Shown here one piece after another: positions 3,184-50,634 of a stretch of 59,347 bases of DNA. The stretch is from contig JACPFF010000015.1 of the NCBI GenBank assembly GCA_016183065.1, forward strand, positions 91,449-150,795, read 5' to 3'. Made by a program: the position numbers and the translations under genes. Every line of letters begins with the position of its first letter. Within the stretch, counting starts at the first letter, position 1. Origin of the DNA: Deltaproteobacteria bacterium. Its GTDB lineage: Bacteria; UBA10199; GCA-002796325; JACPFF01. Below the pieces are notes generated by a model. The model was not told the origin of the DNA. It did not search any database and saw only the letters and a program-made list of their open reading frames with translations.

Positions 3184-4794
3184 TCAGGGACCATCGGCAC
3201 GGTTCCAGTGGGAGTCTTTCGGCGCTTCCCACGTCTCAACCGTATTGATATTGTAATGGAGACCGCGGCTTTCGCGGCGCCACTGGGCGGACCGGATGAT
3301 CAGCGCCGCCACCAGGGCAATGTTGCGCAATTCAATCAGGTCCGCTGTAATCGAAAAATTCCAGTAGTACTCATTGATTTCCTGCTGCAGCAACGTGATG
3401 CGCGCGGCGGCCCTGGCCAGGCGCTTATCCGAGCGGACAATCCCCACATAATTCCACATCAGGCGCCGGACTTCGTCCCAGTTGTGGGAGATGACGACCG
3501 ATTCGTCGCTATCCGTCGTGCCACAAGGGTCCCACTGGGGGATGGCCGATGCGGGAAGCGCCCGTGCGATCGGTACATGACGGATCGTCTCGGCAATATG
3601 TTCGGCCATGACGATGGCCTCCATCAGGGAGTTCGAGGCAAGGCGATTGGCGCCATGGAGACCGGTATGGGCCACTTCACCGCAGGCAAAGAGCTGGGCA
3701 ATGTCCGTGCGACCATGGAGATCGGTCGCGACGCCGCCACAACAGTAGTGGGCGGCCGGGACCACCGGAATCGGCGCTCGGGTGATATCAATGCCATAGT
3801 GGAGGCAGGTGGCATGGATCTGCGGAAATCGCGCGCGGATCTCGGCAGCGGGTCGATGCGAGAGATCGAGGAGCACGTGGGAATGGCCGTGACGTTTCAG
3901 TTCGGCATCAATGGCCCTTGCGACAATATCGCGCGTTGCCAACTCGCCGCGCGGATCATACCGTTCCATAAAGGGTTCGCCGGTGAGCAACCGGAGTTTT
4001 CCCCCTTCACCACGGACGGCCTCCGAGATCAAAAATGACTTGGCCTGCGGATGATAGAGACACGTGGGATGAAACTGGATGAATTCGAGGTTCGCCACGG
4101 TCGCCCCCGCGCGATAGGCCATGGCAATCCCGTCACCCGTGGCGATGTCCGGGTTGGAGGTGTAGAGGTACACTTTCCCGGCGCCGCCGGTCGCGAGGCA
4201 GGTCTGCCGGGCATTGATCGTCCAGATCGTCCCGCTGGGCCGGTGCAGGGCATAGGCCCCAAAACACGTGGTGGTGCGGCAATGCCGTCGTTGGTCTTGC
4301 TGCGTGAGTGTCCGATCCGTGATCAGGTTGACGGCGAGCATCTCCTCGAACAGCGTGATCCGGGGTTCTGCGGTCACCCGGGCGAGGAGGGCCCCCATGA
4401 TGGCGCGGCCCGTTTGATCGGTCGCATGGAGCACGCGACGATGCTTGTGGCCCCCTTCTTGATGCAGATCAAAGTGGTCATCATGGCGCGTGAAATCAAC
4501 CCCCCAGCCGAGGAGGCGTTCAATGGCCTTGGGGCCTTCCCGGACAATCATCTCCACGGCCGCGGTCTTGCAGAGACCGTCCCCGGCACGGAGGGTATCG
4601 TCCACATGGGATCCCAGGCTGTCGGTCGCTTCCATGACGGCCGCAATGCCGCCTTGGGCACACGCGGTATTGGTCTCTGCAGCACGGCGTTTTGTCAGGA
4701 CCGTGACGCGGCGGGTGGGGGCGAGCAGGAGGGCAAGGCTCAACCCCGCAATGCCACTCCCAATGATCAGAACATCGGTCTCGGTATACGCCAT
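3184..4794 (-). CDS. nadB: L-aspartate oxidase NadB
   Basis: Flavoenzyme that oxidises L-aspartate to iminoaspartate, the first step of de novo NAD synthesis. 536 aa, normal family length. The N-terminal Rossmann FAD-binding motif is [15 protein letters not shown] (about 9-23). Further on are the FAD/substrate segments [17 protein letters not shown] and the [14 protein letters not shown] block that separates the succinate dehydrogenase/NadB family. The C-terminal helical domain is present. nadA and nadC are not in the window. Convergent with the preceding gene with a 32-bp gap. Confidence 0.96.
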
Positions 4795-4838
4795 GACCCG
4801 GTGCCGCTACCATGGGGCGCAGGACGAGACAACGCCTA

Positions 4839-4939
4839 TAGTATTTCAACGTGTAATGAGTACAAATGTGCTCATTACACGTTAGAAATACTTATGGTAC
4901 CGTAAGACGCATGTACTCAGGAAAAGTTAACGCACCATA
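4839..4939 (+). repeat. 101-bp dispersed repeat with a long hairpin, copy A
   Basis: About 92% identical to 48968-49068. The hairpin is GTATTTC (4841-4847) plus AACGTGTAATGAG (4848-4860), a 10-nt loop, then CTCATTACACGTT (4871-4883), one unpaired A, and GAAATAC (4885-4891). After it comes a conserved 48-bp tail reading ATG TAC TCA GGA AAA GTT AAC GCA CCA from 4911. Between the copies one stem base pair has changed on both sides (G-C to T-A) and the TAC codon is TAT in the other copy. It lies just upstream of nadB and points away from it. Confidence 0.8.
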
Positions 4940-4984: not shown

Positions 4985-5270
4985 ACCCAGCGCGCACCGC
5001 GCGCGAGAGGGGGAGGCAGTGGCGACGACCGAGTCCGGGGACCCAGCGAAGCTGGGTGGACGAGGGAGTCCCCCAGCGCGCACCGCGCGCGAGAGGGGGG
5101 GCAGTGGCGACGACCGAGTCCGGGGATCCAGCGAAGCTGGGTGGACGAGGGAGTCCCCCAGCGCGCACCGCGCGCGAGAGGGGGGCAGTGGCGACGACCG
5201 AGTCCGGGGATCCAGCGAAGCTGGGTGGACGAGGGAGTCCCCCAGCGCGCACCGCGCGCAATAGTGGGGC
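4985..5270. repeat. Tandem GC-rich repeats, about 85-bp unit, just over three copies
   Basis: The block CGCGCACCGCGCGCGAGAG recurs at 4991, 5077, 5162 and 5246, giving periods of 86, 85 and 84 bp that differ only in a run of G. Each unit also holds a hairpin CCAGCGAAGCTGG and the block GACGAGGGAGTCCCCCAG. Units are nearly identical with no unique spacers, so it is not a CRISPR array. It fills most of the gap between nadB and pgsA. Open frames run through it only because the unit length and composition avoid stops. Confidence 0.9.
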
Positions 5271-5288: not shown

Positions 5289-5317
5289 TTGACTTCTCGC
5301 TATGAATCTTCTACTAT
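5289..5317 (+). promoter_or_regulatory. Sigma-70-like promoter of pgsA, leaderless geometry
   Basis: TTGACT (5289-5294), 17-bp spacer, TACTAT (5312-5317). The -10 box ends 7 nt before ATG 5325, so the transcript should begin at or beside the start codon. Confidence 0.7.
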
Positions 5318-5324
5318 CCGCGGC

Positions 5325-5927
5325 ATGCCTGCCACGCGGTTTCTGAATGTCCCGAACCTGATCTCCGTCTTGCGCGTCGGCACCGTTCCAGCCATCGTCA
5401 TTTTACTGGCCAGTATTCCCCGAGGACACCCCGGGAATCTCTCGTGGGATCGCACCGCGAGCTTCTGGGCGGCGTTCCTCTTCGGCGTTGCAGCGGTCTC
5501 GGATATCATCGATGGGTTCTTGGCCCGTCGATTCCAGACCGTGACCACCTTTGGGAAGTTCTTTGATCCCCTAGCCGATAAACTCCTGACGTTCGGGGCG
5601 CTCGTGATGCTGATTCCCCTGGGCCGCATGGCCGCATGGGTCGTGGTGCTCCTCCTGGCCCGCGAACTCGCGGTCACGACATTGCGGGGGATTGCCAGCG
5701 GAGAAGGGATTGTGATGGCCGCAGGCAAGTGGGGGAAGATGAAGAATGCCTTTGGCAATGTGGGCATTCCACTCGTGATGCTCCATTATCCCCACGGTGG
5801 CATTGCTTGGGCATCAATCGGATGGGTCCTCTTTTTCTGTTCCATAGTGTTGGCGATATGGTCTGGGGGAGGGTACCTGATCAGTTTTTTCCGGACCATG
5901 GGCCTTCGACAGCAGATGTTTGCATAA
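5325..5927 (+). CDS. pgsA: CDP-diacylglycerol--glycerol-3-phosphate 3-phosphatidyltransferase
   Basis: Membrane enzyme making phosphatidylglycerophosphate from CDP-diacylglycerol and glycerol-3-phosphate. 200 aa from the start MPATRFLNVPNLIS. The CDP-alcohol phosphotransferase signature DGx2ARx8Gx3Dx3D is seen as DGFLARRFQ...GKFFDPLADK, with several hydrophobic helices. I chose ATG 5325 because a good promoter ends 7 nt before it; an upstream in-frame ATG at 5289 falls in the -35 box. A second family member lies at 40381-40953; which of them is the physiological PgsA is not settled by sequence. Confidence 0.88.
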   Translation: MPATRFLNVPNLISVLRVGTVPAIVILLASIPRGHPGNLSWDRTASFWAAFLFGVAAVSDIIDGFLARRFQTVTTFGKFFDPLADKLLTFGALVMLIPLGRMAAWVVVLLLARELAVTTLRGIASGEGIVMAAGKWGKMKNAFGNVGIPLVMLHYPHGGIAWASIGWVLFFCSIVLAIWSGGGYLISFFRTMGLRQQMFA

Positions 5928-47344: not shown

Positions 47345-48781
47345 ATGGATCAGCGGGGCATCAATCTGTTGAACCGGCACGAGCCCGGTCCTACGCGGCG
47401 CTACGTGGTGCGGACGTTTGGGTGTCAGATGAACGAGCACGACAGCCTCACCATTCGTGGACTGCTCGCCCAGCATGCCTATCTTCCCGCCACAACGCTC
47501 GACGAAGCGGATCTGATCATCTTCAACACCTGCACCATCCGCGAGAAGGCCCACCACAAGGCTTTCAGCGAGATCGGCCGCACGGCGCAGCTCAAGGAGG
47601 AACGCCCCCATGTCGTGGTCGGTGTTTGTGGGTGTGTGGCGCAGCAGGACCGCGAAGGGCTCTTTCAACGCTTTCCGCACCTCGATCTCCTCTTTGGACC
47701 CGATCAAATTCAGGAACTGCCTCGACTCCTCGACCAGCTGCACAACGGGGAGTCGCACGTCAGCGCATTGCAATGCATCAATAGCGCCGATGACTACCAC
47801 TTTCTCGATCTCATTCCATGGGCAACCGCCGTGGAACAGGGGCGACCCACGGCACCGCCGGCCACGGCGTTTGTGACGATCATGAAGGGGTGCGATGCCA
47901 ACTGTGCCTATTGTATTGTCCCGAGCGTCCGGGGAAAAGAGGTCTGTCGTCCGGCCGAGGCGATTGTGTCGGAAGTGGCTGCGCTCGCCGTCCGCGGCGT
48001 GCGGGAAGTGACGTTGCTGGGCCAGACCGTCAACACCTACGGCAATCGGCGTCATCCGGGCGTGATCCCCTTCCCAGACCTCTTGCAGCGCCTTGCCGAC
48101 GAGACCACGATTGCGCGGATCCGTTTCACGAGCCCGCACCCCAAAGACGTGAATGCCGCCCTGGCAGGGGCATACCGCGACAATCCGAAACTCGTTCCCC
48201 ACATCCACATGCCGCTCCAAGCGGGGTCTGATGCGGTCTTGCGGCGCATGCGGCGGAGTTATTCGCGGCAGCAATACTTGGACAAGGTCGCCCTGTTGCG
48301 TGCCGCCTCTCCCGATCTTGCCCTGACGACCGACCTGATTGTCGGTTTTCCCGGCGAGACCGAGGCTGATTTCCTCCAGACCTGCGGAGTCGTTCGCGAC
48401 GTCGGTTTTTCCGGCATCTATGCCTTCAAGTATTCCCCGCGACCTGGAACGTCGGCGGCCGAAGCCCTGCACGACGATGTGACGGAGAGGGAGAAGCGCG
48501 ATCGCCTGGACCGGTTGTTGACCATGCACAATGCCATGCTCCAGCGCCAATTGGCCGCCAACGTGGGGACGATGCAAGAAGTGTTGATCGAGCGCTACGA
48601 CGAGGGCTCGGCGCAGTGGACCGGACGCACCCCGCACAACACCCTGGTCCATTGCACAGGGGCCTCACTGGCCATTGGGCAGCTCGCGATAATCCATATC
48701 ACCCGTGCGTACGGACATTCGTTGGAGGGGAAGGAACGAGAAGTGATCCGTCGAGAGTTGGCAGGGGGAGGGGGGGTGTAG
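47345..48781 (+). CDS. miaB: tRNA-2-methylthio-N6-dimethylallyladenosine synthase
   Basis: Radical SAM methylthiotransferase acting on A37 of tRNA. 478 aa. N-terminal UPF0004 domain with cluster cysteines in TFGCQMNEHDS, NTCTIRE and VGVCGCVAQ; radical SAM CxxxCxxC in KGCDANCAYCIVP; a C-terminal TRAM domain (about 405-470). TTGACG (47310-47315), 17 bp, TAGGCG (47333-47338) ends 6 nt before ATG 47345. Complete. Confidence 0.95.
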   Translation: MDQRGINLLNRHEPGPTRRYVVRTFGCQMNEHDSLTIRGLLAQHAYLPATTLDEADLIIFNTCTIREKAHHKAFSEIGRTAQLKEERPHVVVGVCGCVAQQDREGLFQRFPHLDLLFGPDQIQELPRLLDQLHNGESHVSALQCINSADDYHFLDLIPWATAVEQGRPTAPPATAFVTIMKGCDANCAYCIVPSVRGKEVCRPAEAIVSEVAALAVRGVREVTLLGQTVNTYGNRRHPGVIPFPDLLQRLADETTIARIRFTSPHPKDVNAALAGAYRDNPKLVPHIHMPLQAGSDAVLRRMRRSYSRQQYLDKVALLRAASPDLALTTDLIVGFPGETEADFLQTCGVVRDVGFSGIYAFKYSPRPGTSAAEALHDDVTEREKRDRLDRLLTMHNAMLQRQLAANVGTMQEVLIERYDEGSAQWTGRTPHNTLVHCTGASLAIGQLAIIHITRAYGHSLEGKEREVIRRELAGGGGV

Positions 48782-48812: not shown

Positions 48813-48839
48813 CAGTATGTGCAATATTTGCACATACTG
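48813..48839. other. 27-bp perfect palindrome after miaB
   Basis: CAGTATGTGCAA, TAT, TTGCACATACTG: a 12-bp perfect stem with 3-nt loop, 32 bp after the miaB stop. No T-run follows, so it is not a typical intrinsic terminator; it may be a weak terminator, an operator or a repeat end. The rest of 48840-48967 shows nothing I can name. Confidence 0.55.
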
Positions 48840-48967
48840 AATGCTTCTGTCATTCCCCTTCATGAGAGATATTGCGCCACACCTGCCCCAACGGTAGCCG
48901 AATAGATGCAACTGGTGAGCGGTTCCGGCCTTCTCGGTATCATCGTCATCGCCCTCCAGAGCTTATG

Positions 48968-49068
48968 TAGTATTTCAACGTTTAATGAGTACTCACGTGC
49001 TCATTAAACGTTAGAAATACTTATGGTACTGTACGACGCATGTATTCAGGAAAAGTTAACGCACCATA
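48968..49068 (+). repeat. 101-bp dispersed repeat with a long hairpin, copy B
   Basis: Partner of 4839-4939. Hairpin: GTATTTC (48970-48976), AACGTTTAATGAG (48977-48989), loop, CTCATTAAACGTT (49000-49012), A, GAAATAC (49014-49020). The tail reads ATG TAT TCA GGA AAA GTT AAC GCA CCA TAA (nine codons and a stop). It lies 150 bp upstream of the AAA-ATPase gene on the same strand. Confidence 0.8.
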
Positions 49069-49185: not shown

Positions 49186-49228
49186 TTGACATTTTCCGCA
49201 AATAAAGTATTATTACTTCATATGCGGA
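49186..49228 (+). promoter_or_regulatory. Promoter and 36-bp palindrome over the ATPase start codon
   Basis: TTGACA (49186-49191), 16 bp, TATTAT (49208-49213), then 8 nt to ATG 49222. An imperfect palindrome with arms TTCCGCA and TGCGGAA, centred on the -10, spans the promoter and the first codons. This geometry suits an operator bound by a dimer, possibly autoregulation. The surrounding 49069-49185 is AT-rich and otherwise empty. Confidence 0.6.
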
Positions 49229-50634
49229 ATTTTATTGGCAGGGAGAGTTATACTAAAAGGCTGCAAGGCCTCTGGAACGAACGTAAGACCAAACTCCTCT
49301 CGATCTATGGTCGGCGTCGGGTTGGAAAGACCGCCTTGATCAAGGTCTTTTCCGAGGGGAAAAATGGGTGGCTCTTTGAGGCTATTGAGGGAGAAGAAAC
49401 GGCGCTACAGGTGAAGCATTTCCTTCACCAATTGAGCCTGATTACAGGAGAAAACCACCTTCGTGATTTGGGTTACCATGACTGGCCCCCCGTTTTTGAA
49501 TTATTGACTCAAAAAATGGCCCGAGAAAAATCGCTGGTGCTGGCTTTTGACGAGATCTCCTGGATGGCGGCGGGACGTTCCCGACTCATTGCTTACATCA
49601 AATTTTATTGGGACAAGCATTGGAAACACCACCCCCATCTGATCCTGATCCTCTGCGGTTCCGTGGCTTCCTGGATGGTCAAGAACGTCGTCCGTTCCAA
49701 GGCCCTCTATGGCCGGATTAGTGAGAATATGCTGATTGAACCCCTCAAGCCGTTTGAAGTGGCAGAATTTATCGAACGACGGCGCGGGCGACGCGAAACA
49801 TTGGAATACCTCCTCTGCTTCGGCGGTATCCCGAAATACCTGGAGGAGTTCGATTTTAGTCGGTCGATTCAAATCAACATCGGGGAGACCTGTTTGCAGC
49901 CGTCAGGTTTTTTTGTCAGCGAAGCGGAGAAAATATTTTACAATCAATTCAAGGAAACACGGATCTATCAAGCGATCGTCAAACATCTTCTCAAGGGTCC
50001 CGCTTCACTCAAGGAAATTTCCGAGAGACTGAAGATACCGAGTGGTGGAGGATTGAAGCTCTATCTGGACAACCTTGGCGCTGCGGGTATTGTCGAAAAG
50101 ATCCCGGAATTGCGCGATTTTGAGCTGAGTCGAACTTTTCGGTACCATCTGGTGGATGAGTTCCTTCGTTTTCATGCTCAGTTTATCCGACCTCACCTGA
50201 CAGAGATACGGAATAGCGACCAGGGTGATCGTTTTGCAAAATTTGTACGTCCCTCCTGGTTCCCATTTTTGGGGTACGCATTCGAGCGGTTTTGTTTCCG
50301 GTTTCGCTACCGGATCGCCCGCCATCTCGGTTTTGAAGATAAAATCCTTGGGGCCGGCTCCATGGTGGACCTTACCCCTGATGGCTATCAGTACGACCTG
50401 ATCTATCTCAGAAATGACGGCGTTATCACGCTCTGCGAGGCCAAGTACCTGACGGAGCGCCCCTCCACAAAATACATCAAGGAATTTGAGCAAAAATTGG
50501 CTCGAACCCGACTCCCAAAGGGAATAACGGTGGAAAAGGTCCTCATTGTCAACCAGGAACCATCTGAGGCCTTAGTCGAAAGCAGCTATTTTCACCATAT
50601 CCTCCCGATAGGGCGTCTTTTGGATAAAGCTTGA
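49222..50634 (+). CDS. AAA-type ATPase with C-terminal PD-(D/E)xK nuclease-like (DUF234) domain
   Basis: 470 aa from ATG 49222 (MRNFIGRESY); a TTG at 49186 is the -35 box. Walker A GRRRVGKT at 30-37, Walker B LVLAFDEISWM near 106-116, a helical lid and winged-helix-like middle (about 250-330). The C-terminus has DLIYLRNDGVITLCEAKYL, the D...ExK signature of restriction-like nucleases. This COG1672-type protein family is common, patchily distributed and of unknown role, often seen as a solitary mobile gene. Lower GC than neighbours and flanked by repeats, consistent with transfer. Confidence 0.85.
   Translation: MRNFIGRESYTKRLQGLWNERKTKLLSIYGRRRVGKTALIKVFSEGKNGWLFEAIEGEETALQVKHFLHQLSLITGENHLRDLGYHDWPPVFELLTQKMAREKSLVLAFDEISWMAAGRSRLIAYIKFYWDKHWKHHPHLILILCGSVASWMVKNVVRSKALYGRISENMLIEPLKPFEVAEFIERRRGRRETLEYLLCFGGIPKYLEEFDFSRSIQINIGETCLQPSGFFVSEAEKIFYNQFKETRIYQAIVKHLLKGPASLKEISERLKIPSGGGLKLYLDNLGAAGIVEKIPELRDFELSRTFRYHLVDEFLRFHAQFIRPHLTEIRNSDQGDRFAKFVRPSWFPFLGYAFERFCFRFRYRIARHLGFEDKILGAGSMVDLTPDGYQYDLIYLRNDGVITLCEAKYLTERPSTKYIKEFEQKLARTRLPKGITVEKVLIVNQEPSEALVESSYFHHILPIGRLLDKA

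Follow-up and report, generated by a model that had tools for sequence, protein, structure and literature searches.

Several kinds of short dispersed repeat have been described from bacterial genomes. The short form of the Correia element (CREE/NEMIS) of Neisseria measures 104-108 bp and has TATAG[CT].. ends with TTAAC (PMC2649163). The RUP elements of Streptococcus pneumoniae (107 bp, TA target) are dispersed and non-coding, with IS630-Spn1 as the proposed mover; the ERIC/IRU repeats of enterobacteria (~127 bp) have TA ends and are intergenic and palindromic; and the CIR of Caulobacter and Brucella consist of 5' and 3' halves that each form a long stem-loop of their own (PMC2229807). An autonomous partner with the same ends is known for RUP and not for most other TA-type MITEs. 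REP/REPIN sequences are imperfect palindromes kept by complementary changes, and rayt genes are reported always to lie between two REPs that bear GT(A/G)G heads (PMC2817692).

The window analysed here (the whole stretch of 59,347 nucleotides) contains two copies, A and B, of a repeat that is probably a non-autonomous miniature transposable element (MITE; Table 1). This reading draws on the 99-bp unit with its imperfect inverted ends and TA borders, the occurrence of copies in both orientations and mostly between genes, a lineage-patchy presence, absence from the syntenic spacers of a sister species, and the interruption of genes with a net gain of 101 bp. The kind of mobile element concerned, a non-autonomous transposon, is known, and this variant of it is new. 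Both copies lie where a first-pass annotation had placed them, at 4837-4939 (116 bits) and 48966-49068 (112 bits) with their borders included. The hairpin reported there is real, but its arms had been given as 20 bp each, and the stem instead comprises 23 pairs, a single A bulging from the 3' arm. The loops of the two copies differ as well, and the right half of the unit, which had been missed, is a second inverted repeat (TATGGT..ACCATA). Copy A lies between a FAD_binding_2/Succ_DH_flav_C gene (3184-4794, minus strand) and a CDP-alcohol phosphatidyltransferase gene (5289-5927), and copy B between a radical SAM/TRAM gene (47345-48781) and an ATPase_2 gene (49222-50634). The surroundings hold further features, including a GC-rich tandem repeat beside copy A (4986-5259; period 84, 3.2 copies, 98% matches), a perfect 12-bp inverted repeat upstream of copy B (CAGTATGTGCAA/TTGCACATACTG with a 3-nt loop, 48813-48839), and a strong promoter-like match directly before the adjoining ATPase_2 gene (TTGACA-16-TATTAT, 11/12, at 49186-49213). 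Sequence akin to the tandem repeat occurs in the flanks of three other loci (L014, L021 and L023) and resembles a second dispersed repeat family.

Table 1. Features of copies A and B, numbered from the first letter of the window.
Feature	Positions	Strand	Remarks
Left TA of copy A, putative target-site copy	4837-4838	.	TA left of 94-96% of copies
Putative MITE, copy A	4839-4937	+	99 bp between TAs
Left hairpin of copy A	4841-4891	+	arms 4841-4863 / 4868-4891, loop 4864-4867; bulged A 4884; T.G wobble 4861/4870
Right hairpin of copy A	4893-4939	+	TATGGT/ACCATA closing
Right terminal repeat of copy A	4911-4937		reads MYSGKVNAP; inside right hairpin
Right TA of copy A	4938-4939	.	
Left border of copy B	48966-48967	.	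TG; most copies TA
Putative MITE, copy B	48968-49066	+	
Left hairpin of copy B	48970-49020	+	arms 48970-48992 / 48997-49020; bulged A 49013
Right hairpin of copy B	49022-49068	+	ends in right TA 49067-49068

Alignment of the copies from this genome (G000) gives sharp edges, with 99 bp between the TAs and the order TA, then TAGTATTTC-AACGTnnnATGAG-loop-CTCATnnnACGTT-A-GAAATAC-T-TATGGT...AAAAGTTAACGCACCA, then TA; across copies, the unit ranges from 99 to 105 bp. The imperfect terminal inverted repeats TATAG[T/C]ATTTCAAC and TATGGTNNNTYAAC (outer ends TATAGTATTTCAAC on the left and TATGGTGCGTTAAC on the right, read inward) follow the pattern TATRGY..TYAAC, with ACCATA on the right side. Each half of the element folds on itself in both DNA and RNA folding to give two adjacent hairpins, with fold z-scores of -7.0 (DNA) and -7.4 (RNA) that were equalled by none of 200 shuffles. 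TA stands on both sides of the copies; the left border is TA in 94-96% of 69 copies, while the right TA in that count is guaranteed by selection, the set having been anchored on ACCATA.

A search of its own genome recovered ~25 near-full-length copies rather than two, located on many contigs and both strands, mostly in intergenic positions and with unrelated flanks, besides three partial copies (L024, L027, L030). Relatives carry the same two-hairpin unit in diverged form: of 46 genomes of the class, 14 were positive with a covariance model based on 50 copies (10 genomes), with ~20 matches each in G003, G021, and G044, some of which are the palindrome read on the opposite strand. Copies are more alike within a genome (identity 0.90) than between genomes (0.72), which points to separate bursts in the individual lineages. 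The named records that carry the element are MAGs deposited as 'Deltaproteobacteria bacterium', which we take to be placed in GTDB UBA10199. Outside this MAG group, no more than single hits resulted when a collection of 84,980 species was scanned for exact 19-mers, and neither these nor the 19-mer hits in viral contigs scored as the element. As a MITE, it would belong to a family that extends over families of an uncultured bacterial class, not one restricted to a single species. Lone right or left hairpins, or ends truncated in or near a hairpin, were observed at L233, L030, L234, L236, and L226, suggesting decay through deletions at the hairpin. Part of one locus in a related genome (9548-9734 of L191, G007:C22) contains short stretches that match many places in its congener G019 (C97, C117, C7, C108) and represents a separate dispersed repeat family.

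With respect to size, TA borders, ends, and distribution, the element fits a mode of operation like that of the Correia, RUP, and ERIC MITEs, and it displays the traits of TA-type MITEs, being a non-coding sequence below 200 bp that is dispersed in many copies and has TA at its terminal inverted repeats. The likeness to Correia elements, compared by ends and sizes, extends to similar length, TATAG[CT].. ends with TTAAC, a mostly intergenic position, and the lack of coding capacity; target duplication is also a property of Correia elements. The ends match the published Correia ends at a mean of 9.45 of 13 positions, a value reached by 5e-5 of shuffles with the TA fixed, and relative to the 26-bp Correia ends (TATAG[CT]GGATTAA..) they are similar above chance and not the same sequence. 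However, the CREE ends pair together into one stem-loop whereas each half folds on itself here, and the present element is found in another bacterial group, spread across a class. RUP resembles it in size, TA target, and dispersed, non-coding copies, but differs in that the element described here has two hairpins and no IS630 gene is present in this genome or in most of its copy-rich relatives. The ERIC/IRU repeats share TA ends, intergenic position, and palindromic structure, but their 5' and 3' ends pair into one stem, and their end sequences presumably differ from those of the element. Two self-folding halves are also the arrangement of CIR, which in contrast contain GANTC motifs and are catalogued as having no terminal inverted repeats. 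The element resembles REP/REPIN sequences as an imperfect palindrome kept by complementary changes, yet falls outside the REP/RAYT definition, with a 5' sequence of GTATTTC/GCATTTC in place of a GT(A/G)G head and no linked RAYT gene.

Two of the copies interrupt genes. At L002 (G000:C8:36179-37206), the element divides a gene whose homologue in G007 is intact, and removing 101 bp while keeping one TA restores a frame that aligns without gaps across the joint to that ~36% identical homologue; at L004 the same removal restores the frame, with no homologue to compare. Target duplication is read from these two genes only, as a 101-bp net gain with one TA kept. The data fit insertion at TA with duplication of the TA, and the same length would result from an element that carries its own TA and inserts beside a TA without duplication. 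A genome of the same genus as G007 (G019) lacks copies and is syntenic around the sites examined; exact DNA-level empty sites are unreadable in this pair, in which synteny is good and the spacers are too diverged. Three head-to-tail copies occur at L159 (G044:C176:11430-11737) with a period of 102 and a single shared TA per joint, and one of the three differs by a compensated change in the outer stem. In the flanks, G is avoided before the left TA (-1) and C after the right TA (+1), a partly symmetric pattern, and the target preference is asymmetric, being stronger on the left (YTM-TA) than on the right.

A transposase acting in trans would recognize the ends of such a MITE and duplicate the TA, and the likeliest candidate would be a DDE enzyme inserting at TA (an IS630/Tc1-like one, or whichever enzyme mobilizes Correia elements). 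Several observations stand against this account. No transposase with these ends was found; IS630 transposases (PF13358) are absent from this genome and from the copy-rich G006, G007, G021, and G036, and the IS630 loci checked lack element ends, so that the host DDE_3 transposase sharing its ends that characterizes IS630-derived MITEs was not seen in the genomes and loci checked. The alternative origin of the 101-bp gain mentioned above also weighs against it, and the left-heavy target preference is unexpected for a symmetric DDE target. Solo ends were considered as termini of a long autonomous element and proved to be truncated copies or, at L233, a lone right hairpin. The missing transposase is nevertheless weak evidence, because draft MAGs (88.8% complete in the case of G000) often lose multi-copy insertion sequences, and it constitutes a concrete target.

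The first-pass annotation had described the stem difference between the two copies as compensated (4853 G/4878 C in copy A versus T/A in copy B) and had taken the structure to be under selection or copied as a unit, and both statements are borne out by a much larger set of copies. In a set of 50 copies drawn from 10 genomes, standard pairs make up 97.1% of pair cells, compared with 88.5% in shuffles and 34-43% in slid controls. Double changes affect 11 of the 23 left-stem pairs, amounting to 104 double-changed cells versus 29 in shuffles, and G000 alone has 11 such cells versus 2.8, so that compensation extends well beyond the A/B pair. Within G000, changes from A-T to C-G (double transversions) occur nearly without intermediates, and the copy at L067 has an inverted hairpin tip. 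Template switching between the arms during replication can fix both arms at once and invert the tip (PMC8794818; PMC8604942). The inverted tip and the near absence of intermediates match this prediction, and template switching probably explains much of the compensation; the two arms of the left hairpin would change together mainly through inter-arm switching in replication. It is not the whole account, because acting alone it would also tend to remove both the bulged A and the T.G wobble, and these are kept class-wide (in 46 and 45 of the 50 copies, respectively). The bulge was lost through a gained T in three copies (L013, L018, L041), all of which are isolated. Copies that lose these imperfections seem not to amplify, which suggests that mobility depends in some way on the folded strand or on the asymmetry of the inner arm; by our inference, template switching would provide the changes, and transposition would filter them for an imperfect fold or an asymmetric inner arm. 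The diverged copies are numerous enough for selection on structure to be told apart from template switching between the arms of a bacterial hairpin, and they serve as a warning that compensatory change does not have to mean an RNA or operator function when the repeat is a dispersed one.

Conservation of the bulge and wobble in a unit of two hairpins amounts to a strand-specific imperfect fold, as would be recognized if a Y1 (HUH) transposase, of either the IS200/IS605 or the RAYT kind, acted on bulged hairpins and mobilized the element in single-stranded form, in the manner of REPINs or palindrome-associated elements. The left-heavy target preference is consistent with such movement, and Y1_Tnp (PF01797) genes are present in G000 and in 38 of 45 genomes searched. 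However, these genes are equally common in element-free genomes, the flanks retrieved for 33 Y1_Tnp loci (up to 1.5 kb) contain no element, the REP pair and GT(A/G)G heads described for rayt genes (PMC2817692) are lacking here, and TA stands on both sides of the copies; this explanation is accordingly considered rather unlikely. It is also unlikely that the imperfect hairpin is itself the substrate of a transposase that acts on folded single-stranded DNA and inserts at TA, which would be a mode of MITE movement not yet described.

The hairpin could instead be kept for a role in RNA (e.g., mRNA processing or stability), with mobility secondary. Correia elements are substrates of RNase III (PMC2649163), and the strong RNA fold and the covariation agree with such a role, as does the excess of G.T over A.C cells, which points to the strand as given on too few independent events to be firm. 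Copies nevertheless occur in all orientations relative to neighboring genes without bias (5/4/4/3 genome-wide with a simple codon-usage gene caller), no Rfam family matches the element (tRNAs being the sole Rfam matches in the window), and no terminator was called in copy A, making an RNA role quite improbable as the primary explanation. An integron attC site, prompted by the AAC...GTT arms, was set aside, as the flanking bases misfit what we take to be the attC consensus (RYYYAAC/GTTRRRY) and the copies are mostly single and not arrayed.

The tail of both copies reads MYSGKVNAP, as first noted, with an immediate stop in copy B, whereas in copy A the frame continues for 117 aa through the GC-rich tandem repeat. 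This peptide is the right terminal repeat of the element read in frame. Despite its identity in A and B, the proposal that it marks the promoter/operator and the beginning of the coding sequence of a gene since lost from both sites is highly improbable and is refuted as a general explanation: 13 of the 24 tails in G000 stop at codon 10, the edge of the element, three lack an ATG, the remainder run for varied lengths into unrelated downstream sequence, the same frame has TAA at codon 3 in G021 and G044, and no promoter-like match lies within the element. Most other copies, then, are not followed by a reading frame, an outcome that the first-pass annotation had itself named as refuting its proposal. 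The suggestion that the lost gene encoded a solitary ATPase likewise fell away, since no ATPase gene starts with MYSGKVNAP and the ATPase_2 gene next to copy B is an unrelated neighbor with its own promoter-like site.

A single copy does stand in frame with a gene. At L010 (G000:C29:38981-39083), the element lies directly upstream of a gene for a phosphodiester glycosidase (PF09992). Translation from the ATG of this copy begins MYSGKVNAPYSRLLALCC..., a plausible start that leads in frame through a signal-peptide-like stretch. The copy may supply the start codon and first residues of the PF09992 gene as a one-off and not as a rule; in Yersinia, a MITE is reported to contribute part of a signal peptide (PMC2229807).
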